Under the pieces are notes generated by a model, which was not told the DNA's origin, made no database searches, and worked only from the letters and a program-made list of their open reading frames with translations. A stretch of 64,000 nucleotides of DNA from Rhodopseudomonas sp. AAP120 (lineage in GTDB: Bacteria > Pseudomonadota > Alphaproteobacteria > Rhizobiales > Xanthobacteraceae): the NCBI RefSeq assembly GCF_001295845.1, contig NZ_LJIC01000015.1, forward strand, positions 62,001-126,000. The letters run 5' to 3'. The translations under genes were made by a program, and so were the position numbers. This document shows positions 7,919 to 51,173 of the stretch, one piece after another; within the stretch, counting starts at the first letter, position 1, and every line of letters starts with the position of its first letter.

Positions 7919-9124
7919 ATGACGACATCGTCAATTCTATCCAAATGGTCACATCTTCTTCTGCTCGGATCGGCACTCGCGTTGGCGGGCTGCGGAACGA
8001 TAACGCCGGCGTCAGGACCTCAGTCCGACGATATTAAATCACAGCGCACCGAAAACGGGCCAAACTACGAACTGGTGAAGCTTTCGCCCGAGATCATCGC
8101 AATTCTGCACACCCACGAGCCGAAGGGTTTGGCGGGTGCGTTCACCGACCGCCGACCGCCGTCTCAGATCGTGTTCGGCATCGGCGACATCGTCAGCGTC
8201 ACCGTCTTCGAAGCCGCCGCAGGCGGCTTGTTCATTCCGGCAGAAGCCGGCGTGCGTCCCGGCAACTACGTCACCATTCCGGATCAGGCCATCGACAACG
8301 ACGGCTTTATCACCGTGCCCTATGCCGGGCAGATCCCGGCGGCCGGACGCACCGCGCTCGCAATCCAAAACTCGATCGTCGAGCGGATTCGCAACCGCGC
8401 CATCGAACCGCAGGCGGTGGTGGCGATGAGTACGCAGCGCACGTCGCTCATCAGCGTGCTCGGCGAAGTCAACACCCCGGCGCGATACCCGGCCAGCGCA
8501 GCGGGCGCCGGCGATCGCGTCCTCGATGCCATCACCCGCGCGGGCGGCATCAAGGGGCAAGGCTTCGAAACCTGGGTGATGCTGGAACGCGAGGGCAAAC
8601 GTGCCACGGTGCCGTTCGAGAATCTGGTGATGTCGCCGCCAAACAACATCTACGTACGACCCGGCGACCGGATCTATGTTTATCGCGAGCAGCAGAAGTT
8701 CATGGCCTTCGGCGCGAGCGGCCAGAGCGGCGAATTCAACTTCGACGCATGGCGGATCAATCTCGGCGAAGCCGTGGGCAAAGCGGGCGGCCTGCTCGAC
8801 AACCAGGCCGATCCCGGCGCGGTCTTCCTCTATCGGCGCGAGCCGCGTGAAGTCGCCGCCCAACTCGGCATCGACGTGAGCCGATACCGGTCCGACACCA
8901 TTCCGGTGATCTTCAGCATCAGCTTCAAGGACCCCGGTGGCTTCTTCCTCGCCACCAAGGTGATGATGAAGAACCAGGACATCATCTACGTGTCGAACGC
9001 CAAGTCGGTCGAGGCGACCAAGGTTCTGGAGTTCATGCGCACCGTGATGGCGACGAGCGGCGATGCGCTCGATCTCGCCAACGGCTCGCTGATCTTCCGC
9101 AACAACATCAAGCTCGCGCCGTAG
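7919..9124 (+). CDS. Outer-membrane polysaccharide export lipoprotein (Wza/GumB type)
   Basis: A 401-residue lipoprotein with signal peptide and lipobox (ALALAGCG, Cys at about 25). It contains the Poly_export domain (about 85-170: FGIGDIVSVTVFEAA, NYVTIPDQAIDNDGFITVPYAGQI) followed by SLBB-type beta-grasp repeats (about 180-350: SVLGEVNTPARYP, VLDAITRAGGI, YVRPGDRIYVYRE). It forms the outer-membrane channel through which exopolysaccharide leaves the cell, working with the Wzc-type protein at 12599. AGGGG precedes the ATG. Upstream lies an AT-rich segment (7800-7860). Confidence 0.93.
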   Translation: MTTSSILSKWSHLLLLGSALALAGCGTITPASGPQSDDIKSQRTENGPNYELVKLSPEIIAILHTHEPKGLAGAFTDRRPPSQIVFGIGDIVSVTVFEAAAGGLFIPAEAGVRPGNYVTIPDQAIDNDGFITVPYAGQIPAAGRTALAIQNSIVERIRNRAIEPQAVVAMSTQRTSLISVLGEVNTPARYPASAAGAGDRVLDAITRAGGIKGQGFETWVMLEREGKRATVPFENLVMSPPNNIYVRPGDRIYVYREQQKFMAFGASGQSGEFNFDAWRINLGEAVGKAGGLLDNQADPGAVFLYRREPREVAAQLGIDVSRYRSDTIPVIFSISFKDPGGFFLATKVMMKNQDIIYVSNAKSVEATKVLEFMRTVMATSGDALDLANGSLIFRNNIKLAP

Positions 9125-9191: not shown

Positions 9192-10115
9192 TTGCCGTCG
9201 TCGAGAGCATCGAGGAGATCGAGGAAACGCGAAGGGCACGAGTTGCCACGCGATAGGGTTGCCGCGGCCACAGTGCCGGTCGCGGCAACACCGCGCCCGG
9301 TGCCCGCCCGGAACGGTGATGGTTCAGCCGCAAGGTTTCGCGTACGGCTGATTGTCACCGTTCCGGCGGTGCTGTTGTGGCTGTTGCGCATGCCGGCGCC
9401 GGCCGCCACCGCTCAACAGGACGATGCGCTGGTCGGCGTTCGCTATCGTGTCGATGCGAGCGTCAGCATCGAGCAAAGCTCTCCTCTCATTGCCCGCATC
9501 CGGCAGGCCGGCGCGGTCGACGCCGAGGGGAGCGTCAATGTCCAGTTGCGGATATCCGCAAACTCGCGCGAAATTCGCTACTTCGGCATTGTCTCGAAGG
9601 ATCTTCCGCTTCGCCTGCCTCCGGCGAATCCGATTTGGTACAAAGTCTGGGAGGAGAATGTCTGCCATCAGCGCCGCGGCCAGCCGAAGCTCACCGTCGT
9701 CCGGCTGTCGGGACGATGGCCGGCTGCCAGGACGACAGGCGCGGCATCGCCGCGCGGGACCCTGTTGCCCGATGCGCCGAGGCCGACCACGCCCGACGAG
9801 GCCGCCCGGCCCCAGGATACGACCGGGAACGGTTTAATTCCGCCCACGGAAAATGCCACTCGTCCGCCGACGGCCGTCGATCATCCCTCCATAGATTTTA
9901 TTTCTGTCATCCGCCATATTGGCATGCCCCTGCGCGACGACGAACTCGTTCCGGGGATTAAATTGCCGGAAGGCGTCGACGACGTTGGACCTTATTATGC
10001 CCTGCGTGCCCAAACCAAGGACAACCGGTTGAATGCCGACCTCCGGCTCTACGCGTTCGACTGCCAGATCGACCCGGCGAGGCTCGAACCAGGGCCTGGG
10101 CAGCCGCTCCGCTGA
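9192..10115 (+). CDS. Exported protein of unknown function in export operon
   Basis: A 307-residue protein with a basic leader (~50 aa), a hydrophobic segment (VRLIVTVPAVLLWLLRMPAPAATA) that reads as a signal peptide or anchor, a compact domain (about 75-170, with VCHQRRG), a Pro/Thr-rich linker and a small C-terminal segment containing one more Cys (AFDCQID). It is probably periplasmic. TTG at 9192 is chosen because AGGAG lies about 8 bases upstream and no ATG precedes the signal segment. It sits 67 bp after the Wza-type gene and 25 bp before the O-antigen-ligase-like gene, which suggests one operon. Family not recognised. Confidence 0.6.
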   Translation: MPSSRASRRSRKREGHELPRDRVAAATVPVAATPRPVPARNGDGSAARFRVRLIVTVPAVLLWLLRMPAPAATAQQDDALVGVRYRVDASVSIEQSSPLIARIRQAGAVDAEGSVNVQLRISANSREIRYFGIVSKDLPLRLPPANPIWYKVWEENVCHQRRGQPKLTVVRLSGRWPAARTTGAASPRGTLLPDAPRPTTPDEAARPQDTTGNGLIPPTENATRPPTAVDHPSIDFISVIRHIGMPLRDDELVPGIKLPEGVDDVGPYYALRAQTKDNRLNADLRLYAFDCQIDPARLEPGPGQPLR

Positions 10116-10140
10116 CCAGGCTGGCTCGTTCGTCTCGTCG

Positions 10141-11562
10141 GTGCAGGCCGTGCGGGACCTGTTCCGGTCGGTGTTTGCCGGCAACGGTATCGCGACGGCG
10201 ATCTTGTTACTCGTCGTGGCCGCAGCGCCGTTTCCGTTCGGCTCCGCTGACGACATCCCGATCGCGTTCTGGTGCATTTGCCTTTCCCTCTGCTTGCTGA
10301 TGGTGACCTTGCGGGAGGCCACCGCGGCTCAGCTGTGGCTGCTGAGCGGGGTCGGCGTGATCGCGATCGGATACGGCATCGTGCTGCACGAGCAGCTTTC
10401 CGATACGCCCTGGTTCGCCCCCTACCACCCATCCTGGCAACACGCCTCCACCATTCTCGGAACCGAACTGCCGACCTCGGCCTCGATCGTTCGGCACGCC
10501 GCCTTTTTCGCCCTTGGCGCACCGCTCGCGAACATCCTCGCCTTGAGCATCGGATTGACGATCGGCGGCGACCGCCGCATCGCCTGGCTGCTGGTGAAGG
10601 TCCTGGCATGGTCAGGCGCCTGCTACGCGCTGTACGGGCTGCTCGCACAGGTGATCGAGCCGCAGATGGTCCTTTGGCGCGAGAAGGTTGCCTACGTCGG
10701 CAGCGTCACAGGCACTTTCATCAACCGCAACACCGCGGCGTGCTATTTCGGATCGTGCACGGTGTTGTGGATGCTGCTGATTGCCGTGAAGATCCGGCGG
10801 CACCTGCCGGGACGACGGGTCGCCTGGCGGCAGTTGCGCGCCGACCTGCGCCTGATTCCCACCGGAGAGATCGCGCTCGATCTCGCAGCCTTCGCGGTCT
10901 GCCTCGTTGCGATGTTCATGACCGGCTCACGTGCGGGCGTCGCGCTGTCGCTGCTCACCATGGTGGTGGCGTTCTCGATTTTCATCCGACGCGACCTGCC
11001 CGCACGCTCCGGCATCTGGTTGTCGCTCGGCGTCGGCTGCTTGGTCGCGTTCGGCTTGCTTCAGTTCCTCGGTGGGCGCGTCAACAGCCGCTTCGAGACG
11101 CGGGATCTGGTCGATGCAGGACGGCTCGAGGCGTGGAAGTCGACCCTCCGGATCATCCACGATAATCCGTGGTTCGGCACCGGAATGGGAACCTTCACAT
11201 CGAGCTTCCCCGCCTACCGAAGCCCCGACATCTCGATTCAGGGCGTGTGGAATGCTGCGCATTCGACGCCGCTGGAACTCGCGTCCGAAGTCGGCCTGCC
11301 TCTGGCATCGCTGATCGCCGCAGGGTGGCTGGTGATGCTGATCGTTCACGCGCGCGGGGTGGTGTATCGCAGCCGGGACGCCGTGCTTCCACTCGCCGCT
11401 GCGGCGATCGGCTGTCTGGCGATGCTGCATTCCAGTGTCGATTTCAGCTTGCAGATCCCGGGATATTCGATCCCGTTTTTCGCGCTGTTCGGCGTGGGAC
11501 TTGCGCAGTCCTTCTCCTCCGGCGCACGCGTCGAACCCGCGTCGCAGGGCTCGACGATGTAG
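10141..11562 (+). CDS. O-antigen ligase/polymerase family membrane protein (Wzy_C)
   Basis: A 473-residue polytopic protein with about eleven helices and a Wzy_C-type region at about residues 255-380: TGSRAGVALS, the large periplasmic loop with GRLEAWKSTLRIIHDNPWFGTGMGTF, and AHSTPLELASEVGLP. These are hallmarks of the O-antigen ligase/polymerase superfamily, which joins undecaprenyl-linked repeat units or transfers glycan in the periplasm. GTG 10141 is the chosen start, since in-frame sequence upstream overlaps the previous gene. A second GTG at 10150 is possible. It lies between the Wza-type and Wzc-type genes. Confidence 0.85.
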   Translation: MQAVRDLFRSVFAGNGIATAILLLVVAAAPFPFGSADDIPIAFWCICLSLCLLMVTLREATAAQLWLLSGVGVIAIGYGIVLHEQLSDTPWFAPYHPSWQHASTILGTELPTSASIVRHAAFFALGAPLANILALSIGLTIGGDRRIAWLLVKVLAWSGACYALYGLLAQVIEPQMVLWREKVAYVGSVTGTFINRNTAACYFGSCTVLWMLLIAVKIRRHLPGRRVAWRQLRADLRLIPTGEIALDLAAFAVCLVAMFMTGSRAGVALSLLTMVVAFSIFIRRDLPARSGIWLSLGVGCLVAFGLLQFLGGRVNSRFETRDLVDAGRLEAWKSTLRIIHDNPWFGTGMGTFTSSFPAYRSPDISIQGVWNAAHSTPLELASEVGLPLASLIAAGWLVMLIVHARGVVYRSRDAVLPLAAAAIGCLAMLHSSVDFSLQIPGYSIPFFALFGVGLAQSFSSGARVEPASQGSTM

Positions 11563-12425: not shown

Positions 12426-12598
12426 AACCATATTAAATTCAATCGTTTTAATTTTATTAAAATTTAACTGACGCCGCTCGCGTTTATCTGCGACTATCGG
12501 TAGTTAATAAATTCCGCCGAGCCGCTCCCGTATCCGCTGGTCGGCGGTGGCGCGCTCGGGACGATCGGACTTTGCGGGGCGATTTCAGGAAGCTTCAC

Positions 12599-14845
12599 AT
12601 GCTGCAGCAAAACAAGTCGACGCAAGAAATCAACCGGGGGCCGGCAGAGCTCGAAGGCGGCGAGACGCGCTCCCTCGGCTCCTATCTGGAGATCGTGCGC
12701 AGGCAATTCCCGACCATTCTGGCGATCATGTCGTCGGTCGTCATTCTGGCTCTGTTGTTCCTGTTCACGGCGGCGCCGCGATATACCTCGACCGCATCGA
12801 TGGTCATCGACACCCGTAAGGTCCAGCTGTTCCAGCAACAAATGCTCGGCGACGTCGCCGTCGATCCGGCCACCGTGCTGACCCAGATCGAGATGCTGAA
12901 ATCCGAAAACGTCAGCCAGGCGGTGATCCGCAATTTCCACCTGACCGAGGATCCGGAATTCATCGGATCGGGAATCGTCGGCAGGCTCCTCAGCTTCATC
13001 GGGCTGTCTTCCGGCAGAAAATCAGCTTCCGAACTCGAACTCAACCGCCGTGCCTTGCAGCGTTTCGAGCGATCCCGCGAGATCAAGCGTGTCGGCCTGA
13101 CCTACGTGATGGGGATCTCGTTCACGTCGCGTGACCCGGCCAAAGCCGCGCGGATCGCCAACGCGATCGCGGACGCCTACATCGTCGATCAGCTGGAAGC
13201 CAAATACGAAGCGACCCGACGCGCCAGCGTATGGCTGCAGGATCGGATCAAGGAGCTTCGGATTCAGGCCTCCGCCGCCCGGCGCGCGGTGGTCGATTTC
13301 AAGACCGCCAACAACATCGTGGACACCGGCAAGGGGTTGATGACCGACCAGCAGATCGCCGAGGTCAACAGCCAGCTGGTCCTCGCTCACGCCTCCACGG
13401 CGGAAGCTAATGCGCGCCTCGAGCGGATGACGGAAATCCTCAAGCAGGGCGTACCGGATGCGTCGGTAGCCGATGCCTTGAAGAATGACACCATCGTGAA
13501 GCTGCGCGGCCAATACGTCGACATGGCGTCGAAGGAGTCGATCTGGACGGCGAAATACGGCGCCGACCATCTCGCGGTGCTGAATCTGCGCACCCAGATG
13601 GCCGAAATCCGTAAGAACATCGTCGACGAGCTCAAGCGCATCCGCGAATCCTACAAGAGCGATTACGACATTGCCGTCACCCGCGAGGAGAGCATCAAGG
13701 CGAGCCTTGCCAACGCCGTTTCCGAATCGCAGTCGAGCAACCAGGCCCAGATCCAATTGCGTGATCTCGACAGCAGCGCGCAGTCCTATCAGGCGATGTA
13801 CGACAACTTCCTGCAGCGATACATGGAGTCGGTGCAGCAGCAATCGTTCCCGATCACCGAAGCTCGGGTGATCAGCTCCGCGTCCACCCCGCTCGGGAAG
13901 AGCTATCCCAATACGATGGTGATTCTCGCGTTGGCGGTGCTCGGCGGCCTGATCCTCGGCCTCGCCGCGGCGATCGCCCGCGAGTTTTCCGACCGCGTGT
14001 TCCGCACCAGCGGCCAAGTCGAGGAGCAGCTCGGGACCAACTGCCTGGCGATCCTGCCGCTGCTCGGCAACGATGCTGCCAAGCCGGTGCTGCCGTGGAA
14101 AGCCAAAGCCAAGACGGGCAGCCGCAAGAGCAAGGAGTTCCTGCGCTACGTGGTCGACAATCCACTATCGCGGTTCTCCGAAGCGCTGCGATCGATCAAG
14201 GTCGCGATCGACCTGAATTCGTTCGTCCGGGAAAATCGAGTGCTCGCGACGACCTCGACGATGCCGAGCGAGGGCAAGAGCACGGTCTCGAGCAACCTCG
14301 CCCAGTTGATGGCTCATGGCGGCGCGAAGGTCATTCTCGTCGACGCCGACCTGCGCAACCCGTCCCTCTCCGCGTCTCTGGCGCCGGATGCCGCGGCGGG
14401 CCTGGTCGACGTGGTCGCGCAGCGGGCCAATCTCGAGGATGTGATTCAGATCGACCCCGCGACCCAGTTGGCGATTCTGCCGGCCGGCTCGACATCGCAG
14501 CTTCTGCACACCAACGAGATCCTGTCGTCCAAGGCGATGCAGGCGCTGGTCAGCGACCTCCGCTCGAAATACGACTACGTGGTACTCGATCTGCCGCCGC
14601 TGGCGCCGGTCGTCGATGCGCGCGTCACCTCGAACTACGTGGACTCCTACGTGTTCGTGGTCGAATGGGGGAAGACCAAGCCGGACGTGATCCAACACAC
14701 GCTGCGGTCCGCGCCGGGGATCGTCGACAAGATCCTGGGCGTGGTCCTGAACAAGGCCGACACCCGCATGCTCGCGCGGTACGAATCCTATCAGGGGCGC
14801 CACTATTATCAGAAGTATTACGCCCGCTACGGCTATGCCGAATAG
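12599..14845 (+). CDS. Polysaccharide co-polymerase with BY-kinase domain (Wzc/ExoP type)
   Basis: A 748-residue inner-membrane protein. It has a Wzz domain with TM1 (about 40-65, ILAIMSSVVILALLFLF), a long periplasmic coiled region (about 150-420) and TM2 (about 435-460). The cytoplasmic tyrosine autokinase domain (about 540-740) has Walker A (STMPSEGKSTVSSNLA), Walker A' (VILVDADLRNP) and Walker B (YVVLDLPP). The tail YESYQGRHYYQKYYARYGYAE carries the expected Tyr cluster. It controls chain length and couples polymerisation to the Wza-type channel. AGGA 8 bases before ATG 12599 fixes the start. The promoter region is very AT-rich (12420-12500). Confidence 0.95.
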   Translation: MLQQNKSTQEINRGPAELEGGETRSLGSYLEIVRRQFPTILAIMSSVVILALLFLFTAAPRYTSTASMVIDTRKVQLFQQQMLGDVAVDPATVLTQIEMLKSENVSQAVIRNFHLTEDPEFIGSGIVGRLLSFIGLSSGRKSASELELNRRALQRFERSREIKRVGLTYVMGISFTSRDPAKAARIANAIADAYIVDQLEAKYEATRRASVWLQDRIKELRIQASAARRAVVDFKTANNIVDTGKGLMTDQQIAEVNSQLVLAHASTAEANARLERMTEILKQGVPDASVADALKNDTIVKLRGQYVDMASKESIWTAKYGADHLAVLNLRTQMAEIRKNIVDELKRIRESYKSDYDIAVTREESIKASLANAVSESQSSNQAQIQLRDLDSSAQSYQAMYDNFLQRYMESVQQQSFPITEARVISSASTPLGKSYPNTMVILALAVLGGLILGLAAAIAREFSDRVFRTSGQVEEQLGTNCLAILPLLGNDAAKPVLPWKAKAKTGSRKSKEFLRYVVDNPLSRFSEALRSIKVAIDLNSFVRENRVLATTSTMPSEGKSTVSSNLAQLMAHGGAKVILVDADLRNPSLSASLAPDAAAGLVDVVAQRANLEDVIQIDPATQLAILPAGSTSQLLHTNEILSSKAMQALVSDLRSKYDYVVLDLPPLAPVVDARVTSNYVDSYVFVVEWGKTKPDVIQHTLRSAPGIVDKILGVVLNKADTRMLARYESYQGRHYYQKYYARYGYAE

Positions 14846-18920: not shown

Positions 18921-20153
18921 ATGTCTCCGTCCCATCGGGTCCTGCCCGATCCGCAACTGGAATGCCTCGTCGTGGCGAAAACTGATACCCCCGGCAAGCC
19001 CTATCGGGTCTGCTTCGTCTGCACGCACAGCCTGACACTTGCCACGCTCTACAAGGGCCTGTTTCCCTATCTCCGCAGCCGGGGCTGGGAGATCGACGTG
19101 GTCGTCGGCGATCGCGAGTATCGCGACTTTCCGGTGGAGCATTTCGGCGAGTTGCAGCCACACATCATTCCGATGCGGCGGCTGCCGTCGCCGGTCGCGG
19201 ATCTGAAGGGGCTGGCACAGTTCGTCGCGTTCTTCGCGCGCCACCGCTACGACGTCATTCACGTCTCCACACCGAAGGCGTCGCTACTGGCATCGATCGC
19301 CGCGACGCTGACATTCAATGGCCGCGTCGTGTTCGTGTATCGCCGCTGCGTCTACGAATTGATGGGCGGACTGAAGCGGGAGGTGTATCTCGGCGTCGAC
19401 CGCCTGATCGCGCGCCTCTCTGCAGTCGTCGTCCCGATCTCGCGGCAATTGCAGGTGTTCCTGCGCGACGCCAAGGTCTGCGCCGCGAACAAGTTGCTGC
19501 TGATCGGCTCGGGATCCAGCAATGGTCTCGACACGCGCCGCTTCCGGCTGACACCGGAGAACCGCGCGGCCGGCGAGGCGCTTCGTATGGAGCTTGGTAT
19601 TCCGGCCGCGGCACCTGTCGTCCTGTTCGTCGGCCGGGTGTGCGGGGAAAAAGGCGTCGATCTGCTGCCGCCGATTTTCGAGCAGGTACGCGCCAAACAC
19701 CCCGACGCTCATCTGGTGGTTGCGGGGCCGGACGATCCGCGCGACCGGGCGTCCGCCGAAACCGAACGCTACTTCACGCAGGAGCGCTTCGTGCGCCGCA
19801 TCGGCTATGTGGCCAAGACCGAGCCGTATTACGCGCTGAGCACCGTGTTCCTGTTCCCATCGTTCTTCGAAGGCTTCGGCAACGTTCTCCTGGAAGCCGC
19901 CGGGATGGAGCGCGCATCCGTGGCCTTCAAAGTGCCCGGTGTCGAGGAGGCCGTTGCCGACGGCGTCAGCGGCATTCTCGTCGGCAAGGGGGACGTCGAT
20001 GCGGCTGCGGCCGCTGTGTCCCGGCTACTTCATGACCCAGAGTTGCGGCGTGGCTTCGAGCAGCGCGCGCGACGACGGGTCGAAACCGAATTCGAGCAAT
20101 CGCGGATATGGGCCGACATCGAGTCGATGATGCTGCGACTGGCAACCGCCTGA
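18921..20153 (+). CDS. Glycosyltransferase family 4
   Basis: A 410-residue GT-B enzyme. The N-terminal Rossmann half starts at RVCFVCTHSLTLATLYKGLF. The C-terminal half contains VLFVGRVCGEKGVDLL and the donor-binding EX7E motif (FFEGFGNVLLEAAGMERA). The overall look resembles capsule and exopolysaccharide GT4 enzymes of the PglA/WbpL-neighbour type. A cytoplasmic role adding one sugar to the lipid-linked repeat is expected. The start may be ATG 18921 or GTG 18972, which both precede the first strand. Its TGA overlaps the ATG of the flippase fusion gene. Confidence 0.85.
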   Translation: MSPSHRVLPDPQLECLVVAKTDTPGKPYRVCFVCTHSLTLATLYKGLFPYLRSRGWEIDVVVGDREYRDFPVEHFGELQPHIIPMRRLPSPVADLKGLAQFVAFFARHRYDVIHVSTPKASLLASIAATLTFNGRVVFVYRRCVYELMGGLKREVYLGVDRLIARLSAVVVPISRQLQVFLRDAKVCAANKLLLIGSGSSNGLDTRRFRLTPENRAAGEALRMELGIPAAAPVVLFVGRVCGEKGVDLLPPIFEQVRAKHPDAHLVVAGPDDPRDRASAETERYFTQERFVRRIGYVAKTEPYYALSTVFLFPSFFEGFGNVLLEAAGMERASVAFKVPGVEEAVADGVSGILVGKGDVDAAAAAVSRLLHDPELRRGFEQRARRRVETEFEQSRIWADIESMMLRLATA

Positions 20154-23100
20154 TGAAAAGCCCCGCCGACGACGAACTCACGCACGGCGAGGCGCGGCAC
20201 CGCGCCGCCCGTGGCGCCGTCAGCGTGCTCGGCCGACACGCTCTGGTCCGTCTGCTGGCTTTCGCCGGAACGCTGGTGCTGGCGCGGTTGATGGTGCCGA
20301 GCGAGTTCGGCCTGTTCGCCGTCGCGCAGTTCATCTTCTCGGTGCTGCAGGCTTTGACCATCGGCGGCGTCACGGCGGCGCTGATCCGTCGCCGGGAGAC
20401 GGTCGCCGCGGCCGACTACCGAGTGGCCCTCACCGTCCAGCAAGGCTTCGCCGCGATCGCGGTGATCGCGCTGTACGCCGCCGCGCCGCAGATCGCATCG
20501 TACTGGGATCATTCGGCCGAACTCGTTCCGGTCATCAAGGTGCTGGCGCTGGCGCTGTTCCCGCTGTCGCTGCGCTCGATTCCATTCGCGATCCTGCAAC
20601 GGGCGCTGCGACACGATCAGACCACGATCTGCGAAATCTTCGAGTACGTCGTTTATCTAGTGCTCGCCATCACGCTCGCCGCGCTGGGTTGGGGTGTATG
20701 GGCGCTGGTGATCGCCACGCTCGCCCGCTACGCCGCCGGTGCGATCGTCGCCCACCTGCTGGTTCGCGGCCTCCCGCGGTTCGGCTTCGAGGCCTCGCGC
20801 GCCAAAGCCTTGCTGCACTTCGCGGTGCCGCTCCAGGGCCAGATGCTGATCGATCTGGCACAGCGCTCAGTGATTCCGGTGGTCATCGGTTCGCTGTTCG
20901 GCGCGGCCTCGGTCGGTATCGCCGCAATGGCCAATACGATGCTCGAGGCGCTGCTGCTGCAGCCCCTGGTGATGCTGGCGAGCATTCAGATGCGGATGTT
21001 TGCCCGCATCCAGCACGATCCTTCCGCCATGGCCGCGCTGCTCGAGAAATGCCTTGCGGCCGGCGCGCTGGTATTCCTGCCCCCCGTGGTGTTGCTCGGC
21101 GTTGTGGCGCCGGCCCTGATGCCGAAGATCCTGTCGGCACATTGGGCCGATGTCGGCGATTTGATCCGCTGGCTCACGCTGGCTTCGGCGCTCCAGGTCT
21201 TGGCGGTGCCGACCGCGCAGGCCGCGAAGGCGCTGGGTCGGATGCGAGCTCTGCTGATCGGCGGCATGGTCAGCCTGGTGCTTCAGATCGGAATTGTGCT
21301 GCTGCTCGCGGCTCCCCTCGGGCTAGCCGCCTACCCGGTCGCCGCTGCTATCGGTACCGGCGCAAATTTCCTGATCGTGTTCATCAACGTCGGCCAAGTC
21401 ATCGGCATGCGCCCGATCCTGGCGATCGGCCCGGCGCTGTGCGGGCTCGCGCTGGCGACGGCGATGTGGTGCACGGCGATCGTCACCTTCACATCGATCC
21501 CGCTGATCGTGGCGATGCTGCTGCTCGGTGTGCTGACTTATGTTGCGGCGGTGATCGCGCTGAGCAGCCGGCAGCTCGCCGCATTGCTGCGCTTCGCCGG
21601 CTCGAGCATGCCGCCCCGCGTGCAGCACCGCATCGAGACTTTCGCCAGCCGGATCGACGGCAAGCGTCGCACAGCTCCGACGTTGCAGAAGGCCAGCTCG
21701 GTCGCAGCCCCAATCGCCCCCGCGTCGGCCTCGATCGATCTTCCCGAAGTTTCCCATGTGCGTCTCGCAGCGGAAACCTGGTCGACGCCGGCCGTGGTGC
21801 GCTGGGGCGGCCGCACGCTGGTGATTACCGTCGATCGTAGCGGCGAGATCCGTGCGCTCGACGGGCGGGATCTCTCCATCGTCTGGAAGCGCTCGCTCGG
21901 CGCTGAGATCACGGCGTCACCTACGATCGTCGACCGCGACGGCGATGGTCGTCCGGAGATCATTGTCGGCACCCACGCCGGCGAATTGTTCATGTTCGCG
22001 CCCGATGGCTGCCTGCTGCGCCACTACAAATTCGACGACGTCATCCGCTCCTCGGTGGCCGCGGCGGACATCGACGGCTCCGGCGTCCCGACCCTGTTCG
22101 TGGCGGTCTACGGACCCGTCGTGGTCGCGGTGGGCGCCGACGGCAAACAGCGCTGGCGCCGCCGCCTGCCGAACCATCTGTTCGCCGGCCGGATGAAGCG
22201 CGGCGTCGTCTCGTCGCCGCTGGTCGCCGATGTGGACCGCGACGGCACCGCCGAGATTGTCATCGGCATTCGCTCGTCCCGGCTGTTCTGCCTCGATGCC
22301 AGGACCGGACGGATCAAGTGGTTCGCCAAGCTCGGCTATGACCCGGACTCCTCGCCCTCCTTCGTGATCGATGGCAGCGGCCGGCCGCTGGTGCTGTTCG
22401 GCGGCGGCGAACACACCGGCGGCGAAGGAGACAACGCGATCATCGCGCTCGATGGACGGACCGGCCGCCGCGTCTGGACCACCGTGGTCGGAGGCGGCGT
22501 CGATTCCAGCCCGATGTTGCTCGAGCGGCCCGGCCGCTCCCCGATCGCCGTCGCCTGTGCGCTGGCGCGGCCGGCGGTGATCGCCGTCGACGCCTGGAGT
22601 GGCGATCTGCTGTGGCGCCACGATTTCGGACCGACGGCCGAATGCGAGCATGGGCCGGATCACCGCTGCCGTCCGCCAGGGCGCGCATACTTCACCGAGC
22701 ATGCGACATGCCGCAGCTACACCACGCCGCTGATGGCCGATGTCGACGGCGATGGCCGGGTCGAGATCGTCGCCGGCTCGAACAATGGCGAGCTCGTCGT
22801 GCTCGACGCGGAAACCGGCCGATTGCGAACGCGGCTCGCCATGGGCGGCGCGGTGCGCGGGTCGCCGGTGATCGCGGATCTGGACGGCGACGGTTTTTGC
22901 GAACTCGCAGTGGTTGGCGGCAATCGTCTGAGCATCCATCGCACCCGGCACACCGGTCCGGAGACCACAATGTTCAAAGGCCGTGCCGATCACCTCGGCA
23001 CGATCGGTCCATTGCCACCTGCTGCCGCCATCGCGCCGCGTCGTCCGCCTTGGTACATGCCCATCGCGCTGTTCTGGCACCTCGGCGTCGCTGATATGCT

Positions 23101-23176
23101 GCGCCATGTGTTTCTGAAGGCCGACGAACGGATCCTGCGCCGGTGCGGTCTTCGCCTGTTCCGGTACGGCTATTGA
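20153..23176 (+). CDS. Wzx-type flippase fused to a C-terminal beta-propeller
   Basis: 1007 residues. Residues ~1-475 are a polysaccharide flippase of the MOP superfamily: GRHALVRLLAFAGTLVLARLMVPSEFG at the N-terminus, 12-14 hydrophobic helices and an MPKIL segment. After a Pro/Ala linker (~476-535) comes a propeller (~535-940). Its PQQ-like blades read LDARTGRIKW and LDGRTGRRVW. Asp-rich FG-GAP loops DRDGDGRPEI (~595), DIDGSG (~639), DVDRDGTAEI (~692), DVDGDGRVEI (~862) and DLDGDGFCEL (~908) look calcium-binding. A three-Cys stretch (CEHGPDHRC...C) and an aromatic C-terminal helix end it. The frame is unbroken, with ATGA overlap to the preceding gene. Ordinary Wzx proteins are ~400-500 aa, so the propeller is extra. 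Confidence 0.85.
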   Translation: MKSPADDELTHGEARHRAARGAVSVLGRHALVRLLAFAGTLVLARLMVPSEFGLFAVAQFIFSVLQALTIGGVTAALIRRRETVAAADYRVALTVQQGFAAIAVIALYAAAPQIASYWDHSAELVPVIKVLALALFPLSLRSIPFAILQRALRHDQTTICEIFEYVVYLVLAITLAALGWGVWALVIATLARYAAGAIVAHLLVRGLPRFGFEASRAKALLHFAVPLQGQMLIDLAQRSVIPVVIGSLFGAASVGIAAMANTMLEALLLQPLVMLASIQMRMFARIQHDPSAMAALLEKCLAAGALVFLPPVVLLGVVAPALMPKILSAHWADVGDLIRWLTLASALQVLAVPTAQAAKALGRMRALLIGGMVSLVLQIGIVLLLAAPLGLAAYPVAAAIGTGANFLIVFINVGQVIGMRPILAIGPALCGLALATAMWCTAIVTFTSIPLIVAMLLLGVLTYVAAVIALSSRQLAALLRFAGSSMPPRVQHRIETFASRIDGKRRTAPTLQKASSVAAPIAPASASIDLPEVSHVRLAAETWSTPAVVRWGGRTLVITVDRSGEIRALDGRDLSIVWKRSLGAEITASPTIVDRDGDGRPEIIVGTHAGELFMFAPDGCLLRHYKFDDVIRSSVAAADIDGSGVPTLFVAVYGPVVVAVGADGKQRWRRRLPNHLFAGRMKRGVVSSPLVADVDRDGTAEIVIGIRSSRLFCLDARTGRIKWFAKLGYDPDSSPSFVIDGSGRPLVLFGGGEHTGGEGDNAIIALDGRTGRRVWTTVVGGGVDSSPMLLERPGRSPIAVACALARPAVIAVDAWSGDLLWRHDFGPTAECEHGPDHRCRPPGRAYFTEHATCRSYTTPLMADVDGDGRVEIVAGSNNGELVVLDAETGRLRTRLAMGGAVRGSPVIADLDGDGFCELAVVGGNRLSIHRTRHTGPETTMFKGRADHLGTIGPLPPAAAIAPRRPPWYMPIALFWHLGVADMLRHVFLKADERILRRCGLRLFRYGY

Positions 23177-24466: not shown

Positions 24467-25651
24467 ATGAAGATCGGCTACGTCATCCATCGCTTCCCTT
24501 GGCCGTCCGAAACATTCATCAGCCGGGAGGTCGCTGACATCATCGGGCTCGGCCACGAGGTCGAGATATACTCGTTCGACGAACCGCAAGGCCGCGATGC
24601 CGAATTGCTGGGCGATCAGGCCCGCGAATTGAAGGCGAAGACGCAATACATCTCGCGCAATGAGGCCGCTGCCGCGCTACCGTCGATCTCGACGCTGGCA
24701 ATGTTCGGTGAAGAAAAGCGGCTGGCACGCACCGCGACCGATCGGAGCAATCGCCTGCTGCGCCTCGGCCGCGCAGCCGCGCTGGCGCGCCGCGCCCGCC
24801 GCGACGGGGTGACATTGATGCACGCGCATTGGCCCTACGCGACGCAATGCGCCCACCTCGCCAGCCTGGCGACCGACCTGCCTTATTCGGTCAGCATTCA
24901 TGCGCATGAGGTCGCGCACGACAACGGCCATTTCGCCGCCTGCTTCGAACGACTGCAGTTTGCCACGTTCTGCAACGGCGCAGCGATGGAGTATCTCCTG
25001 TCGCGGCTCGGGCCGGGCGCCCGCGCAAAGTCCCACCTCGTCTACCACGGCGTCGATGTCGGCACCTTCTCGGTGCAGCCGGCGGCGACAACGCCGCCGC
25101 CGCTGCGCATTCTGTCCGCAGGCCGGCTCACCGCGTCGAAGGGTTTCGACCGTCTTGTCCGCGCCTGCGCCGACGCGTCGGCTACGGGGCTCGATGTCCG
25201 CCTCACCATTCTCGGGCGTGGGCCGGAAGAAGAGACGATCCGCCAGGTCGCGGCTGCGACCGGTTTTTCCGAGCGGCTCGACCTGCCGGGCTGGGTGTCG
25301 CACGACAAGGTCACCGGCTACATGCGCGACTGTCAGGTTTTCGCTTTGCTGGCGTCCGACGATTTCAACGACGGCCTGCCCAATGTCGTGGTCGAGGCGA
25401 TGGCGTCGGGCCGGCCGGTGATCGTCTCGCCGCTGCCGGCGGCGCGTGAGATCATCGAGCCCGGCGTGAACGGCTTCATCCTGTCTGCGGTGGACGATCG
25501 GCCGGGCTTCGTCGCCGCGCTCGCTGCGCTTGCAGCCGGCGACACCGCATCCAGCATGGCAAGCGCCGCACGCAAAACCGTCGAGGAGCAGTACGACTCG
25601 CGGCGCCATATCCGCACCCTCGCAGCGTTGTTCGAGGGTGTCTGCCGATGA
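24467..25651 (+). CDS. Glycosyltransferase family 4
   Basis: A 394-residue GT-B protein starting KIGYVIHRFPWPSETFISREV, a signature of the exopolysaccharide/colanic-acid GT4 subgroup (AmsK/WcaL/ExoL-like). Further motifs are HAHWPYATQ, SVSIHAHEV, ILSAGRLTASKGFDRLV and the C-terminal donor site (FNDGLPNVVVEAMASGRPV). Cytoplasmic, it adds a sugar to the undecaprenyl-linked repeat. The stop overlaps the next start (ATGA at 25648). Confidence 0.88.
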   Translation: MKIGYVIHRFPWPSETFISREVADIIGLGHEVEIYSFDEPQGRDAELLGDQARELKAKTQYISRNEAAAALPSISTLAMFGEEKRLARTATDRSNRLLRLGRAAALARRARRDGVTLMHAHWPYATQCAHLASLATDLPYSVSIHAHEVAHDNGHFAACFERLQFATFCNGAAMEYLLSRLGPGARAKSHLVYHGVDVGTFSVQPAATTPPPLRILSAGRLTASKGFDRLVRACADASATGLDVRLTILGRGPEEETIRQVAAATGFSERLDLPGWVSHDKVTGYMRDCQVFALLASDDFNDGLPNVVVEAMASGRPVIVSPLPAAREIIEPGVNGFILSAVDDRPGFVAALAALAAGDTASSMASAARKTVEEQYDSRRHIRTLAALFEGVCR

Positions 25652-28279: not shown

Positions 28280-29409
28280 GCACGCTCAGCCGACCGGCCG
28301 GGGGGGAGCGCGCCACGATCCGCAGCGTGCAATTCCTGCGCTTCGTCGCCGCCGCGATGGTCCTGATCGGCCACCTCCAGGACGCCTTGCGCCGCGGCCG
28401 GATACCCGGCCTCGCGCCGTTCGACGATCCGACCGGCCTGCCGTGGCATTCCGGGGTGGACATCTTCTTCGTCATCTCCGGCTTCGTGATGTACATGATG
28501 GCCGCCGATCAGTTCGGGCGGCCGGGCGCGCCGGCCGCGTTCATCCGGCGCCGGCTGATCCGGGTCGCGCCGCTATATTGGGCTTTCACGCTGCTGGCGG
28601 TGCTCACCGTCATCGTTCTGCCGGAGCGGGTTCAATCGACGCAGCTGTCGTTCCCGCACATCGTTGCATCGTTACTGTTCGTGCCGTGGCGGGCGCCCTC
28701 GGGCGGACTGGTGCCGCCGCTCTCGGTCGGCTGGACGCTGAACTTCGAGATTCTGTTCTACAGTGTATTCGCTTTCGGCCTCCTGTTTCGCCGCGCAGTC
28801 GGCCTGACCGCCATCGTCGCCATTCTGTTCGCGCTGATGATTCCGCGCGTGCTGTTTCCCAATGCGGTCGGCGATCAACTCGATGCGTGGGGCTTTCCGA
28901 TCACCGTCGAGTTCCTGTTCGGAATCCTGGTCGGCCGGCTGTATCTCGCTAACATCCGGCTGCCCGGCGTAGCGCGTGTCGCCATCATCCTCGCGGCACT
29001 GCTGGCGCTGTCGTTCGGCAATCAGGCCGGCCTCAATGCGTTTCAGGATCGCTGGTTCTTTTGGGGTGTTCCGGCGGCCGCCATCGTTGCGTCGACGGTG
29101 CTCGGCCGCGATCTTCCGGATCGAAGCTGGAGCCGCGTCCTGGTGCTGTGTGGCAACGCGTCCTATGCGCTTTACCTGTCGCACCTGTTCACGCTGCGGG
29201 CGGTCGGGGTGCTGTGGTCGAGCCTTCACCTCAATTCCGTCGCCGCGTACTTCGCGCTCGCCGTCGTCAGCTCGGTGCTGGTGTCGATCGCCGTTTATCT
29301 GTGGTTCGAACGGCCGCTGCTCGCATGGCTCGGGCGACGAACCGGGTCGAAGCGCGTCAGCGCGGCTGCTGTGGGCGCGACGCCGGAGGGACTGGGAGGC
29401 TCGAAATGA
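28276..29409 (+). CDS. Acyltransferase family 3 (OafA/ExoZ-like)
   Basis: A 377-residue membrane protein with about ten helices. SVQFLRFVAAAMVLIGHL contains the conserved His. GVDIFFVISGFVMY, FIRRRLIRVAPLYW and GNASYALYLSHLF are the family landmarks. Such enzymes add acetyl or other acyl groups to polysaccharide repeat units at the inner membrane. A second member lies at 33388. Overlaps: 4 bp upstream and 4 bp downstream. Confidence 0.9.
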   Translation: MSTLSRPAGGERATIRSVQFLRFVAAAMVLIGHLQDALRRGRIPGLAPFDDPTGLPWHSGVDIFFVISGFVMYMMAADQFGRPGAPAAFIRRRLIRVAPLYWAFTLLAVLTVIVLPERVQSTQLSFPHIVASLLFVPWRAPSGGLVPPLSVGWTLNFEILFYSVFAFGLLFRRAVGLTAIVAILFALMIPRVLFPNAVGDQLDAWGFPITVEFLFGILVGRLYLANIRLPGVARVAIILAALLALSFGNQAGLNAFQDRWFFWGVPAAAIVASTVLGRDLPDRSWSRVLVLCGNASYALYLSHLFTLRAVGVLWSSLHLNSVAAYFALAVVSSVLVSIAVYLWFERPLLAWLGRRTGSKRVSAAAVGATPEGLGGSK

Positions 29410-30788
29410 AGTCGCTGCCGGTTTTCCTCGCGGTTTTCGTGTTCCTGTGCTGGGCCAGGACGTCCCGGACGCCCTGGCTGTTCTTCGGCTGGGGCTTCCT
29501 GATCACCGGCCTGCCGCTCCTACGCGGTCTGATCGGCCCGATCCCGGTCTATCTGTTCGATGTCGCGGTATGCCTGGTATGGACGATCGTTCTCACTCGC
29601 CCAGGCATCTCCGCATGGCCGCAGCAGGTTCCGCCCTGGAGCGTGCTGTTCGTCGGCATCTTGACGATCTTCGGCACCCTGCTGCCGACGCTGACTTACG
29701 GCTTCTATCCGGAGATGGTCTGGAATCTCGGCCACACCGGCCTCGCCATGACCACCATTGTGCTCGGCGCGTTCCTGCTGCGCGGCGCGACCCCGGCGGA
29801 ACGCAACGGCATACGGCTCGGCATCGCCATCGGACTGATCGTCCTCGCCGCCATTGCGATCCTGGAGAAGTCGAGTTCGGATTGGAATGCGGTGCTGGTT
29901 CGTCTGTTTTACGGCGCCGGCGACGAGACCGCCGACCAGAGCGGCAGCGTCGCGGCCGCGGAGGTTCTGAGCGCCCTCGGCCGCGTTTCCGGGCCGTTCG
30001 GTTCGCCGAACACGTTCGGCATCGTCGCCCTGATGGCGGCGCTGAACTACTGGCTGATCAGCGTGATCGATCGCCGCCAAAGCCTGCTCAGCTACGTCGT
30101 ACCGGCCAGCCTCGCGATCGTCGCCCTCGCCTGCGGATCGCGTCAGGTGATCATCGCGACGGGCCTCGTCGGCCTCGGCTACGTCATGACCACGGCTCCC
30201 GAACGGGCCCTTCCGCGCCTGTTGCTCGGCGCCGCGCTGATCGCCCCGATCCTGATTTTCGTGGATCCCAGCGCGCTGCTCGACCGCCTCGGAAATCTCT
30301 CCGCGGGCGTGGACGAGGCCAATGTCAGCGCCCGCCTCAGCGAAGGACCGCAACGCTTCTGGGAGATGCTGGTCCAGGATCCGACGCTGCTGTTCACCGG
30401 AGTAGGCCTCGAGATCCAGAAGCTGACGCGTTTCAACGTCGACATCCCATCCGAAATTCTCGATGGCTTCGTCTCGAACGGTTACCTGCTGTACATCTAC
30501 TTCTTCGGAATCTTCGGGTTCCTCGTCATGGCGGCGTTTTGGATCTGGGTCGTCCATCAAGGCTTCGTGGCTCCCAAAGCGATCCGGCCGATCACCAGCG
30601 GCGGCGCTCTCGCCCTCGCCTTCATCGTGTTCGCCGACAACCACGCGGTGCTGTCGGAGGAACTGCTGAACCACATCATGATCTTCGTCGGGATGATCAC
30701 CGCGATGACGACCGCGGCTGCCCCGGCGAGACGGCTGAGACCAATCAGAATGGGAGTGCCTTCAGATGCGCGTCGCGCTTCACAGTGA
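29406..30788 (+). CDS. Wzy-type polysaccharide polymerase candidate
   Basis: A 460-residue polytopic protein with about twelve helices and a large loop (about 290-350: GNLSAGVDEANVSARLSEGPQRFWEMLVQDPTLLFTGVGLE) similar in style to O-antigen polymerases ('R...W..ml..P..l.GvG'). GRVSGPFGSPNTFG is another polymerase/ligase-like segment. Because it lies inside the sugar operon between acyltransferase and glycosyltransferases, it is the best candidate for the dedicated Wzy. The ligase-like proteins at 5454 and 10141 could have other jobs. Confidence 0.75.
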   Translation: MKSLPVFLAVFVFLCWARTSRTPWLFFGWGFLITGLPLLRGLIGPIPVYLFDVAVCLVWTIVLTRPGISAWPQQVPPWSVLFVGILTIFGTLLPTLTYGFYPEMVWNLGHTGLAMTTIVLGAFLLRGATPAERNGIRLGIAIGLIVLAAIAILEKSSSDWNAVLVRLFYGAGDETADQSGSVAAAEVLSALGRVSGPFGSPNTFGIVALMAALNYWLISVIDRRQSLLSYVVPASLAIVALACGSRQVIIATGLVGLGYVMTTAPERALPRLLLGAALIAPILIFVDPSALLDRLGNLSAGVDEANVSARLSEGPQRFWEMLVQDPTLLFTGVGLEIQKLTRFNVDIPSEILDGFVSNGYLLYIYFFGIFGFLVMAAFWIWVVHQGFVAPKAIRPITSGGALALAFIVFADNHAVLSEELLNHIMIFVGMITAMTTAAAPARRLRPIRMGVPSDARRASQ

Positions 30789-31908
30789 CAATTTTGCGCG
30801 GCGCGCGCGTTTCGGACTCAGTCGCTATTCGCACGAGATTCATGGCGGCCTCGCCGCGCACGGCATCGACACCGTGCCGATCTCCGCGGTTTCGGATTTC
30901 GGCGACGACCAGCCCGATTGGCTGACCAAGAGCGGCTTCCGTCGTTTGCCACTCAGCCGGCGCGTGCTGGCATCGATGTGGGCGTCAGGCTCGCCCGTGC
31001 CGCGACTCGAACACTGGCTCGACCACGTCGATATCATTCACTCCCTGGATGTCGACTATCCGATCGCTACCGCCAAGCCCTGGATCATCACCTATCACGA
31101 CCTCGGCGTGCTGGTTCATCCCGAGTATTTCGGCAAGGCGAGGCCCTGGCTGCTGCGATCGTCGATCGCTGCCGCTGCGCGGCGGGCGGCTGCCATCATC
31201 TGCGTGTCGCGATCGACTGCCGACGAAGTCATGGCATTCGGCGGCGCCGCCGCGGCCGACCGTATCCACGTGATCGAGGAAGGTGTCGGCGAAGAGTTCT
31301 TCGCGCCGCCGAGCAGCGAGACACTGGAAGAATTGCCGCCGATCCTCTCCGAGCGCCCGTTCTTTCTGTTCACCGGCTCCCTGAGCCCGCGAAAGAACTT
31401 CGCCCGGGTGATCGCCGGCTTCGCGAACGTCGCCGGCCGCCTGCCGCATCGACTTGTCCTCACGGGCGCGCGCGGATGGGATACGACCGAAGACATCAAG
31501 GCGATCACCGCGACCGGGATCGCCGATCGCATCGTCGAACTCGGCTATGTGTCCGACGCGGTGCTGAGAGCGTTGTATGCGCGCGCCACAGCATTTCTCT
31601 ATCCGTCCCTGTATGAAGGCTTCGGCCTGCCGATCCTCGAAGCGATGGCCTCGGGCTGCCCTGTCGTGACGTCGAACATGGCGCCGATGACGGAGGTGGG
31701 TGGCGATGCGGCCGTCTACGTCGATCCGCGGCGCAGCGATGATGTGGCCGTCGCATTGATGAAGTTCGCCACCGACTCTGCATTTTGCGACTCGCTTCGC
31801 GAGCGCGGGCGGCTGCAGGCCCGTCGCCTGAACTGGGAGACCTGCGTGCATCGGACCATCGAGGTCTATCACCAGGTCGCGCAGGAGAAACGCCGTGCGC
31901 CACGCTGA
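30766..31908 (+). CDS. Glycosyltransferase family 4
   Basis: A 380-residue GT-B enzyme of the mannosyltransferase-like type. Landmarks are RYSHEIHGGLAAHG, WIITYHDLGVLVHPEYF, ICVSRSTADEVM, FFLFTGSLSPRKNFARVI and the EX7E donor motif (LYEGFGLPILEAMASGCPV). GGGAG about 8 bases upstream supports ATG 30766, giving a 23-bp overlap with the polymerase gene. Cytoplasmic, repeat-unit assembly. Confidence 0.9.
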   Translation: MRVALHSDNFARRARFGLSRYSHEIHGGLAAHGIDTVPISAVSDFGDDQPDWLTKSGFRRLPLSRRVLASMWASGSPVPRLEHWLDHVDIIHSLDVDYPIATAKPWIITYHDLGVLVHPEYFGKARPWLLRSSIAAAARRAAAIICVSRSTADEVMAFGGAAAADRIHVIEEGVGEEFFAPPSSETLEELPPILSERPFFLFTGSLSPRKNFARVIAGFANVAGRLPHRLVLTGARGWDTTEDIKAITATGIADRIVELGYVSDAVLRALYARATAFLYPSLYEGFGLPILEAMASGCPVVTSNMAPMTEVGGDAAVYVDPRRSDDVAVALMKFATDSAFCDSLRERGRLQARRLNWETCVHRTIEVYHQVAQEKRRAPR

Positions 31909-33163
31909 CCTGCCCGATGTGGTGGTCGTCAATGATCGCGCCTTCCCGGGCGGCGGCGCCTCGAAGGTCGCGTTGCAGTCGGCTATTGGATTGGCTCGGC
32001 GTGGCCATCGCGTCACGGTGTTTGCGGCGATGGGGCCGGCCGCACCCGACCTGACCGCCGCAGGCATCGACCTCCATCTGCTCGGCCAGAGCGATCTCGC
32101 CAGCGGCGGGCGGCTGAGGATGGCCGCGCAGGGATTGTGGAACAGCAAGGCGGCCGAGCAACTCGGCAGCGTGCTGGAGCGCATGCGACGCGGGCGCACC
32201 ATCGTTCACATCCACAGCTGGTCGAAGGCGCTGTCGGCGAGCGTGTTCGCCGCTGCCGGCCGTTCCGGGCACGCCGTGATCGCGACCCTGCACGACTACG
32301 GCTTCGTCTGCCCGAACGCCGCGCTGCACGATTTTCCGACCGGGACCGCCTGCTCTCGCACGCCGATGTCGCTTGGATGTCTCGCCGCCGATTGCGACGC
32401 ACGCGCGCGAGCCCACAAGCTGTGGCGCGTGGCGCGGCAGATCAGCCTGTCGCATGTTGCCGGAGCCTCCAGGCTGCTTGCCGCGGCGGTTTGCGTGACC
32501 GACTATTCGCGCCGCATCATGCAGCCGTTCGTTTCCGATCGACTGGAGATGGTCGTCGTCCCGAATCCGATCGATGTGGCCGATCTCGGCCCGGCCGCGC
32601 CGGCCCGATCCGGCCACTTCACTTATGTCGGACGGTTCTCGCGTGAGAAGGGTGTGCTGATTGCGGCCGAAGCTGCACAACGGGCGGGCGTGCCGCTGGT
32701 GTTGGTCGGCGATGGAGAGTTGCGGAACGACGTCGCGCGGATTGCGCCGTCCGCGACCATCACCGGCTGGCTGCCCGCCGCGAAGGTCTGCGAAGCCATT
32801 CGCGCCAGCCGCGCGGTCGTCGTGCCGTCGCTGTGGCGAGAGACCCAGGGCATGGTGGTGCCCGAAGCTCTGAGTGCTGGCGTCCCGGTGATCGCCGCGA
32901 CCGCAACCGCACCGGCGGCTGCAATCGAACCCGGCGTGACCGGTCTTCTTTTCGAGAACGGCGACGCCGGTGCGCTCGCTCATCTGTTCTCCCGCCTCGC
33001 CGCGAACGACAGGCTCGTCGCCGACCTCGGCGAAGCCGCCTATCGCAATTATTGGCAGACTCCGGCGACGATGGATCGGCATCTCGATGGGCTCGAGGCG
33101 CTCTACGAGCGCGTTTTGTCCGAGCGGAGCAAGACCCACCGCAGCGAAGCTCGATCCGCCTAG
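31895..33163 (+). CDS. Glycosyltransferase family 4
   Basis: A 422-residue GT-B enzyme: VVVNDRAFPGGGASKVALQSAIGLA, IVHIHSWSKALS, ATLHDYGFVCPN, FTYVGRFSREKGVLIAAEAA and the donor site WRETQGMVVPEALSAGVPV. The Cys-containing segment CSRTPMSLGCLAADCDA after the first domain is found in a GT4 subgroup of capsule loci. GTG 31895 is used because AGGAG precedes it. It overlaps the previous gene by 14 bp. A 224-bp gap without a gene follows. Confidence 0.88.
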   Translation: MRHADLPDVVVVNDRAFPGGGASKVALQSAIGLARRGHRVTVFAAMGPAAPDLTAAGIDLHLLGQSDLASGGRLRMAAQGLWNSKAAEQLGSVLERMRRGRTIVHIHSWSKALSASVFAAAGRSGHAVIATLHDYGFVCPNAALHDFPTGTACSRTPMSLGCLAADCDARARAHKLWRVARQISLSHVAGASRLLAAAVCVTDYSRRIMQPFVSDRLEMVVVPNPIDVADLGPAAPARSGHFTYVGRFSREKGVLIAAEAAQRAGVPLVLVGDGELRNDVARIAPSATITGWLPAAKVCEAIRASRAVVVPSLWRETQGMVVPEALSAGVPVIAATATAPAAAIEPGVTGLLFENGDAGALAHLFSRLAANDRLVADLGEAAYRNYWQTPATMDRHLDGLEALYERVLSERSKTHRSEARSA

Positions 33164-50477: not shown

Positions 50478-51173
50478 ATGGCGTATGGCGTTCGCCTCCG
50501 TGTGAAGGGGCGATGGGCATTGTTCACGCGGCCGGAGATGAAGGTCGAGCGGGTCTCCTATGACGTGATGACCCCGTCCGCCGCGCGCGGCATTCTCGAA
50601 GCGATCCACTGGAAGCCGGCGATCCGCTGGATCATCGATGAGATCCACGTCCTCAAGCCGATCCGCTTTCAGTCGATCCGCCGCAACGAGGTCGGCGCCA
50701 AGGCACCGGTCGCGACGATCCGGAGGGCGATGAAAAGCGAAGAGATCGGAGACCTCGCGCTGGTCATCGAGGACCATCGGCAGCAGCGTGCAGCGACGTT
50801 GCTGTCGAACGTCGACTACGTGATCTGCGCGCATTTTGCGATGACCACGAAGGCCGGCATCGACGACAACGAAGCCAAGCACCTCGACACGTTCAATCGG
50901 CGAGCCCGCAAGGGACAGGCGTTTCATCAGCCATGCCTCGGCACGCGCGAGTTTCCGGCGAGCTTCGAGCTTCTGGAGCCGCACACGCCGTTGCCGCAGC
51001 CGGATCCGGAGGATCGTACGGCGGGGCTCGGTTTCGGAATTCCGCGCGACCTCGGCTTCATGCTCTACGATATCGACCACGGCGGCGACGGCGGTTCGGT
51101 GCTGTTTCGCGCCACGCTCGACCGCGGAGTCGTCAAGGTGCCGCCGCCCGATTCACCGGAGCTGCGGCGGTGA
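50478..51173 (+). CDS. cas5c: CRISPR-associated protein Cas5, type I-C (Cas5d)
   Basis: 231 residues, normal for Cas5d. YGVRLRVKGRWALFTRPEMKVERVSYDVMTPSAARGILEAI is the family N-terminus (RAMP fold, 'FTRPE.K.ERVSYDV.TPSAARGIL'), and KGQAFHQPCLGTREFPASF is the second landmark. In type I-C this protein replaces Cas6 and cuts pre-crRNA. The Lys-His pair at about residues 134-135 is a candidate for the catalytic pair, not aligned. First gene of a three-gene operon, overlapping cas8c. No cas3 precedes it as it would in a complete I-C locus. Confidence 0.95.
   Translation: MAYGVRLRVKGRWALFTRPEMKVERVSYDVMTPSAARGILEAIHWKPAIRWIIDEIHVLKPIRFQSIRRNEVGAKAPVATIRRAMKSEEIGDLALVIEDHRQQRAATLLSNVDYVICAHFAMTTKAGIDDNEAKHLDTFNRRARKGQAFHQPCLGTREFPASFELLEPHTPLPQPDPEDRTAGLGFGIPRDLGFMLYDIDHGGDGGSVLFRATLDRGVVKVPPPDSPELRR

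Follow-up and report, generated by a model that had tools for sequence, protein, structure and literature searches.

The question raised by this locus is whether a polysaccharide flippase and a beta-propeller are genuinely joined in one protein and, if they are, on which side of the membrane the propeller lies and what it could contribute to flipping. The gene concerned, P0001, lies in the window (the whole 64,000-nucleotide stretch of Rhodopseudomonas sp. AAP120 DNA that was analysed), within what is, judged by gene content, a Wzx/Wzy-type polysaccharide cluster whose neighbouring products are predicted to make and export polysaccharide. The genes referred to below are:

7919-9124, + strand: polysaccharide export gene (Pfam)
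10033-11562, + strand: Wzy_C gene (Pfam)
12572-14845, + strand: Wzz/AAA_31 gene (Pfam)
18921..20153, + strand: upstream glycosyltransferase (Glyco_trans_1_4 in Pfam), whose stop overlaps the start of P0001
20153..23176, + strand: flippase-propeller gene P0001, an open frame of 1007 codons
23143..24465, + strand: downstream gene P0002, likely ATG at 23179, no family found

The cluster also contains a NusG-like factor, epimerases, several glycosyltransferases (24467-25651 and 30766-33163 besides the upstream one), two acyltransferases and a beta-helix protein. A second Wzy_C-like protein, below the Pfam cut-off, is encoded at 29061-30788 (+), and the two Wzy_C-like proteins are possibly one ligase and one polymerase. 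For P0002, nothing matched in Pfam, NCBIfam or PHROGs, nor among solved structures, plasmids or 110 related genomes; by eye it is of an all-helical glycan-enzyme type. The CRISPR genes Cas_Csd1 and Cas7, which we take to be of type I-C, are found at 50933-53868 (+), downstream of the polysaccharide cluster.

The single uninterrupted frame of 1007 codons described in an earlier note on this DNA was borne out, as the frame at 20153-23176 showed no internal stop and the identical frame, again stop-free inside, was recovered from the whole genome on a contig of 237,833 bases. The upstream glycosyltransferase stop and the P0001 start overlap in a TGATG at 20151-20155, and the likely ATG of the downstream gene follows 2 bases past the P0001 stop, joining P0001 to both neighbours as in an operon. 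At third codon positions the flippase part has a G+C of 0.85 and the propeller part one of 0.83, and the codon usage of the two parts correlates with that of the neighbouring genes at r 0.89 and r 0.95, respectively; the lower values of the short linker (r 0.75) and the C-terminal tail (r 0.69) come from few codons each. Neither composition nor codon usage points to a frameshift or chimera. An assembly chimera would fit the occurrence of the fusion in one draft genome of 228 contigs with no second copy found, but the frame is in register and uninterrupted, overlaps its neighbour's stop, lies within a 238 kb contig and shows little change of base composition at the junction, which makes this explanation very improbable. 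The flippase-propeller fusion is real, intact and unusual.

P0001 divides into the following parts:

20153..21577, + strand: PST/Wzx-type MOP flippase, residues 1-475, predicted C-in (PF13440, alignment, topology scoring)
21578..21757, + strand: basic linker, residues 476-535, predicted cytoplasmic (9 Lys/Arg in residues 471-530)
21758..23017, + strand: PQQ/BamB-like beta-propeller, residues 536-955 (Pfam, model, fold search; eight blades by sequence)
23048..23173, + strand: basic aromatic C-terminal tail, residues 966-1007, helical in a low-confidence model

Compared with domain profiles, the first half was recognized as Polysacc_synt_3 and the second as PQQ_2, PQQ and FG-GAP_3, all above cut-off, so that both families proposed in the earlier note are present in one intact frame. 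Polysacc_synt_3 (PF13440) spans residues 42-334 with an E value of 6e-50 and 170.5 bits against a curated cut-off of 23, and P0001 is the only strong PF13440 protein of the genome (E 4e-51 in the genome-wide search); two further proteins match more weakly (E 3e-6 and 1e-4), though also over the cut-off, and look like MurJ by eye. P0001 shares this profile, a Wzy-type cluster context and a predicted inside C-terminus with the Wzx/PST flippases of the MOP superfamily such as WzxE and TacF, and the role predicted for a protein of this type is the flipping of lipid-linked repeat units; different from these flippases, about 530 residues follow the flippase in P0001. The flippase half had no match among solved structures by sequence at E 1, and its single-sequence AlphaFold model was poor (pLDDT 51, pTM 0.28) and was left out of the helix count.

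In the second half, PQQ_2 (69.6 bits, cut-off 27.6), FG-GAP_3 (57.5 bits, cut-off 26.9), FG-GAP and PQQ (PF01011, the dehydrogenase propeller; 47.7 bits, cut-off 26.7, best stretch residues 806-902) all exceed their Pfam cut-offs within residues ~540-920, while Beta-prop_ACSF4 with 80.7 bits stays below its cut-off of 133. Sequence comparison with solved chains (18 at E 0.001, the best at 1.7e-9) places the propeller closest to BamB, PQQ alcohol dehydrogenases and designed propellers. The model of residues 501-1007, built from the single sequence and of low confidence (pLDDT 50, pTM 0.53), matched WD40 proteins as well as BamB and designed eight-bladed propellers with Z of 23-26 and rmsd of 3-3.8 A over 280-320 residues. 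All 977 of the 977 aligned chains had Z of at least 8 and WD40 proteins ranked level with BamB, so that the fold search indicates a propeller rather than its kind. As the model matches several propeller types alike, the count of eight blades, which we infer from the sequence repeats, rests on sequence. The C-terminal ~40 residues are basic, amphipathic and predicted to be helical with low confidence; of the terminal aromatic helix described earlier, the aromatic character stands, with basic and amphipathic character added, and the helix itself is a low-confidence prediction.

How often a flippase carries so much behind it was estimated from two sets of flippase frames, in which C-terminal extensions of more than 120 residues occur in 2/58 other frames, one of 29 in each set (L030 and L075); five of the 34 rows of the second set had no locus and were left out, including one whose frame has 816 residues. 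Neither extension matches a propeller family. The first (L030 223-2820, - strand, genome G116) belongs to an 866-residue PST flippase frame with an Acetyltransf_6 (GNAT) domain at residues 643-789 (E 4e-27), and resembles P0001 in joining a PST flippase to a large C-terminal domain, but that domain is an acetyltransferase and there is no propeller. An Acetyltransf_6 domain should be cytoplasmic. The second frame (L075 1063-3438, + strand, genome G216) has 205 extra C-terminal residues with no Pfam or NCBIfam match, which look by eye like the start of a glycosyltransferase, possibly cut by a frameshift.

The side of the membrane was approached by two kinds of topology scoring. Automatic scoring of P0001 alone gave 46.4 for an N-in arrangement with 12 helices versus 38.9 for N-out with 11 helices, the C-terminus being inside from either start. 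Helices were also set by hand from hydropathy averaged over 20 aligned flippases, with N-in assumed; 15 maxima were seen, two of which (at 250 and 277, stretch 243-286) were merged as one helix to give 14. The loops of this model contain 22.4 Lys/Arg per sequence inside versus 2.3 outside over the 20 flippases, obeying the positive-inside rule as N-in/C-in. The number of helices varies with the method (14 hand-set, 12 or 11 automatic), and the assignment of the C-terminal side is consistent. In WzxE, both termini lie in the cytoplasm (PMC11706664). Taken together, the topology scoring, the inside termini of WzxE and the flippase-acetyltransferase fusion in G116 suggest that the propeller is most likely cytoplasmic. 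The earlier proposal of an exported propeller behind an odd number of helices found no support, as automatic and hand-set scoring both returned a C-in protein.

A second line of evidence came from the cysteines. The three-Cys cluster noticed earlier is indeed present as C831, C839 and C853, to which H833 is now added, and lies in a loop insert between blades 6 and 7:

22643..22711, + strand: C-x-H-x5-C-x13-C cluster, residues 831-853, candidate metal site, kept in P0004

P0004 is the sole close relative of the propeller found among 385 class genomes (E <= 1e-12), a separate protein of 443 residues (L043 1811-3142, + strand, genome G472) with 28% identity to the P0001 propeller over 272 residues. 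All four residues are kept in place in P0004, together with adjacent Pro, Gly, Tyr and Thr, and the pattern arose by chance in 15/20000 shuffles of P0001 and 11/20000 of P0004. Basic tails are likewise common to the two proteins, with a net charge of +6 over 52 residues in P0001 and of +8 over 38 in P0004, whereas P0004 has neither a flippase nor calcium loops. At its N-terminus no hydrophobic segment and no visible signal peptide were found. Since the cluster is kept by both members while P0004 lacks a visible signal peptide, the Cys-His-Cys-Cys arrangement is more suggestive of a putative site for metal than of a disulfide linked to export, a lead that comes from two members, and the hint of export formerly read into the cysteines is better replaced by this reading. 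The P0004 gene lies between an HU/IHF-like gene, which it overlaps upstream, and DUF1365; further along the locus, one gene looks by eye like a cyclopropane synthase and another encodes an MFS_2 transporter.

The five Asp-rich loops of the earlier account were all recovered, following D-x-D-x-D/S-G at residues 594, 639, 693, 863 and 909:

21932..21949, + strand: FG-GAP-type Asp loop DRDGDG, residues 594-599
22067..22084, + strand: Asp loop DIDGSG, residues 639-644
22229..22246, + strand: Asp loop DVDRDG, residues 693-698
22739..22756, + strand: Asp loop DVDGDG, residues 863-868
22877..22894, + strand: Asp loop DLDGDG, residues 909-914

Calcium-type loops were not found in P0004, and thus they do not belong to the common core of the propeller domain. 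Calcium binding by FG-GAP loops usually takes place outside the cytoplasm, which counts against a cytoplasmic propeller. These loops are the starting point of a quite unlikely alternative, in which an odd number of helices would place the propeller in the periplasm, stabilized by calcium loops and a disulfide, from where it would deliver flipped units to Wzz or to the polymerase Wzy. The five canonical loops, the three clustered Cys, the presence among the fold matches of BamB (a lipoprotein that belongs to the machinery of outer-membrane assembly) and the 15 hydropathy maxima obtained when none are merged would all suit such a placement, but the positive-inside scoring, the basic linker and tail, the C-terminal acetyltransferase fusion and P0004, which keeps the Cys/His cluster without calcium loops or a visible signal peptide, argue against it. 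The exported propeller was dropped as the leading reading on the strength of the topology scoring and of P0004.

With the propeller most likely in the cytoplasm, it could be either a catalyst or a platform. In a catalytic propeller, a metal held by the Cys-His-Cys-Cys site on the loop face would serve to alter the lipid-linked sugar ahead of flipping, and the flippase-acetyltransferase fusion may act likewise by chemistry of its own. Such a propeller is suggested by the Cys/His cluster with its adjacent shared Pro, Gly, Tyr and Thr, by that separate fusion, and by the Pfam PQQ match (47.7 versus 26.7 bits), which also weighs against a non-catalytic platform. Against this, all nine NCBIfam models listed stay under their cut-offs, with 33-48 bits versus 285-833 for those of quinoproteins and BamB, and we consider catalysis distinctly improbable. 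A PQQ enzyme in particular was set aside as unlikely, the dehydrogenase models TIGR03075 (33 bits vs 480) and TIGR03074 (35 vs 833) lying far below cut-off, even if the Pfam PQQ match passes the cut-off set for it. The BamB equivalogs were likewise unmatched (TIGR03300 48.4 bits vs 285.2; NF008351 33.8 vs 423): the P0001 propeller shares fold and repeat type with BamB/PQQ-like propellers but differs from BamB in its fusion to a membrane protein, its Cys-His-Cys-Cys insert and its distance below the equivalog cut-off.

Searches for other fusions returned the same single genome. Full P0001 at E 1e-20 gave, outside its own genome, flippase-region matches only, in two of 150 related genomes; the propeller at E 1e-12 was found in its own genome and G472 only among 385 class genomes, with no second fusion. 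A two-row propeller profile at 1e-12 matched its own genome only among 398 phylum genomes, as did a 133-column profile among 297 order genomes (1e-6) and 319 phylum genomes (1e-5), and among 76 relatives of G472 a P0004-like propeller occurred in G472 only. The genome sets share members, and scoring took in no more than 4 to 14 first-look candidates per genome, so weaker relatives may have escaped. Nothing was confirmed by pattern scans of genome contigs or by scanning viral contigs with propeller and flippase alignments. Among plasmids, 77 records match full P0001, 0/77 covering 80% of it in one place (30/77 are among the matches listed); 12 match the propeller at 1e-3 and 38 a 133-residue propeller piece at E 1, counted regardless of the Cys cluster, and none match P0004 or P0002. 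The fused architecture is present in one genome only among the sampled genomes and plasmids, and the earlier remark that no described flippase-propeller protein was known agrees with the open-licence papers listed, among which, judged by titles, neither such a protein nor a like flippase fusion is evident. For PQQ propellers with zinc or cysteine, the one open-licence paper listed concerns anammox enzymes.

This rarity bears on whether the two halves work together. In a recent chance fusion of neighbouring genes, the propeller would act as if alone with no coupled function, for which the lack of a second fusion in the samples searched and the separate gene of P0004 speak; both halves are nevertheless intact and their codon usage is common to the cluster, and we take a chance fusion to be decidedly unlikely. 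A fusion in one genome leaves no conservation to show selection.

The reading we prefer, with about an even chance of being right, is a flippase bearing a cytoplasmic, non-catalytic propeller as a docking or gating platform at its entrance. In this mechanism, the flippase, of Wzx type (PST), would span the membrane with 14 or 12 helices, an even number, and have both ends in the cytoplasm, and the basic linker would hold the eight-bladed BamB/PQQ-like propeller at its cytoplasmic mouth. The loop face with the Cys-His-Cys-Cys site could hold the finished lipid-linked unit, or the last glycosyltransferase, beside the entrance, so that flipping would be coupled to completion of the repeat unit, while the basic C-terminal tail may rest on the inner leaflet. 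What the analysis shows is an intact gene with both domain families in its cluster context, a computed C-in topology and a Cys/His cluster common to P0001 and P0004; the number of blades, the binding of metal, the partner docked, the gating and the contact of the tail with the membrane we infer. A coupling of the propeller to repeat-unit handling had been proposed earlier; the fusion behind that proposal is real and the coupling is judged reasonable, but the export side was given up. A bolder version, which we regard as unlikely, is that a metal-bearing cytoplasmic propeller reads or loads finished units and gates flipping by their completeness and by metal or redox state; the Cys-His-Cys-Cys propeller would then be the first of an unrecognised family to be tethered to a flippase.

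The docking or gating proposal draws on two parallels. The first is the intracellular domain of mycobacterial MurJ (MviN), which follows helix 14 and binds partners (PMC6180346). P0001 would have the same layout, with 14 helices in the hand-set model and a large, predicted cytoplasmic C-terminal domain proposed to bind partners, but MurJ belongs to the MVF family and has a pseudokinase where P0001 has a propeller; no kinase domain was matched in P0001 by Pfam at E 0.001, and an NCBIfam AfsK match of 23.7 bits versus 1300 covers propeller residues 865-909. The linker of MurJ is essential and its pseudokinase part dispensable (PMC6180346), which speaks against the docking reading. The second parallel is WzxE, whose C-terminal arginine cluster lies near the cytoplasmic entrance and is required for activity (PMC11706664); the linker of P0001 is likewise basic. 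In favour of the proposal is also TacF, a flippase that monitors the phosphocholine of its substrate (PMC13385700).

MOP flippases with a cytoplasmic C-terminal domain already exist, and the pairing with a propeller is seen in one draft genome; the fusion adds a propeller to the cytoplasmic domains attached to MOP flippases. To our knowledge, there is no settled answer as to how Wzx recognizes a finished repeat unit or whether it physically contacts glycosyltransferases. The natural fusion would offer a tethered module, removable or swappable, for testing the recognition of finished units by Wzx.
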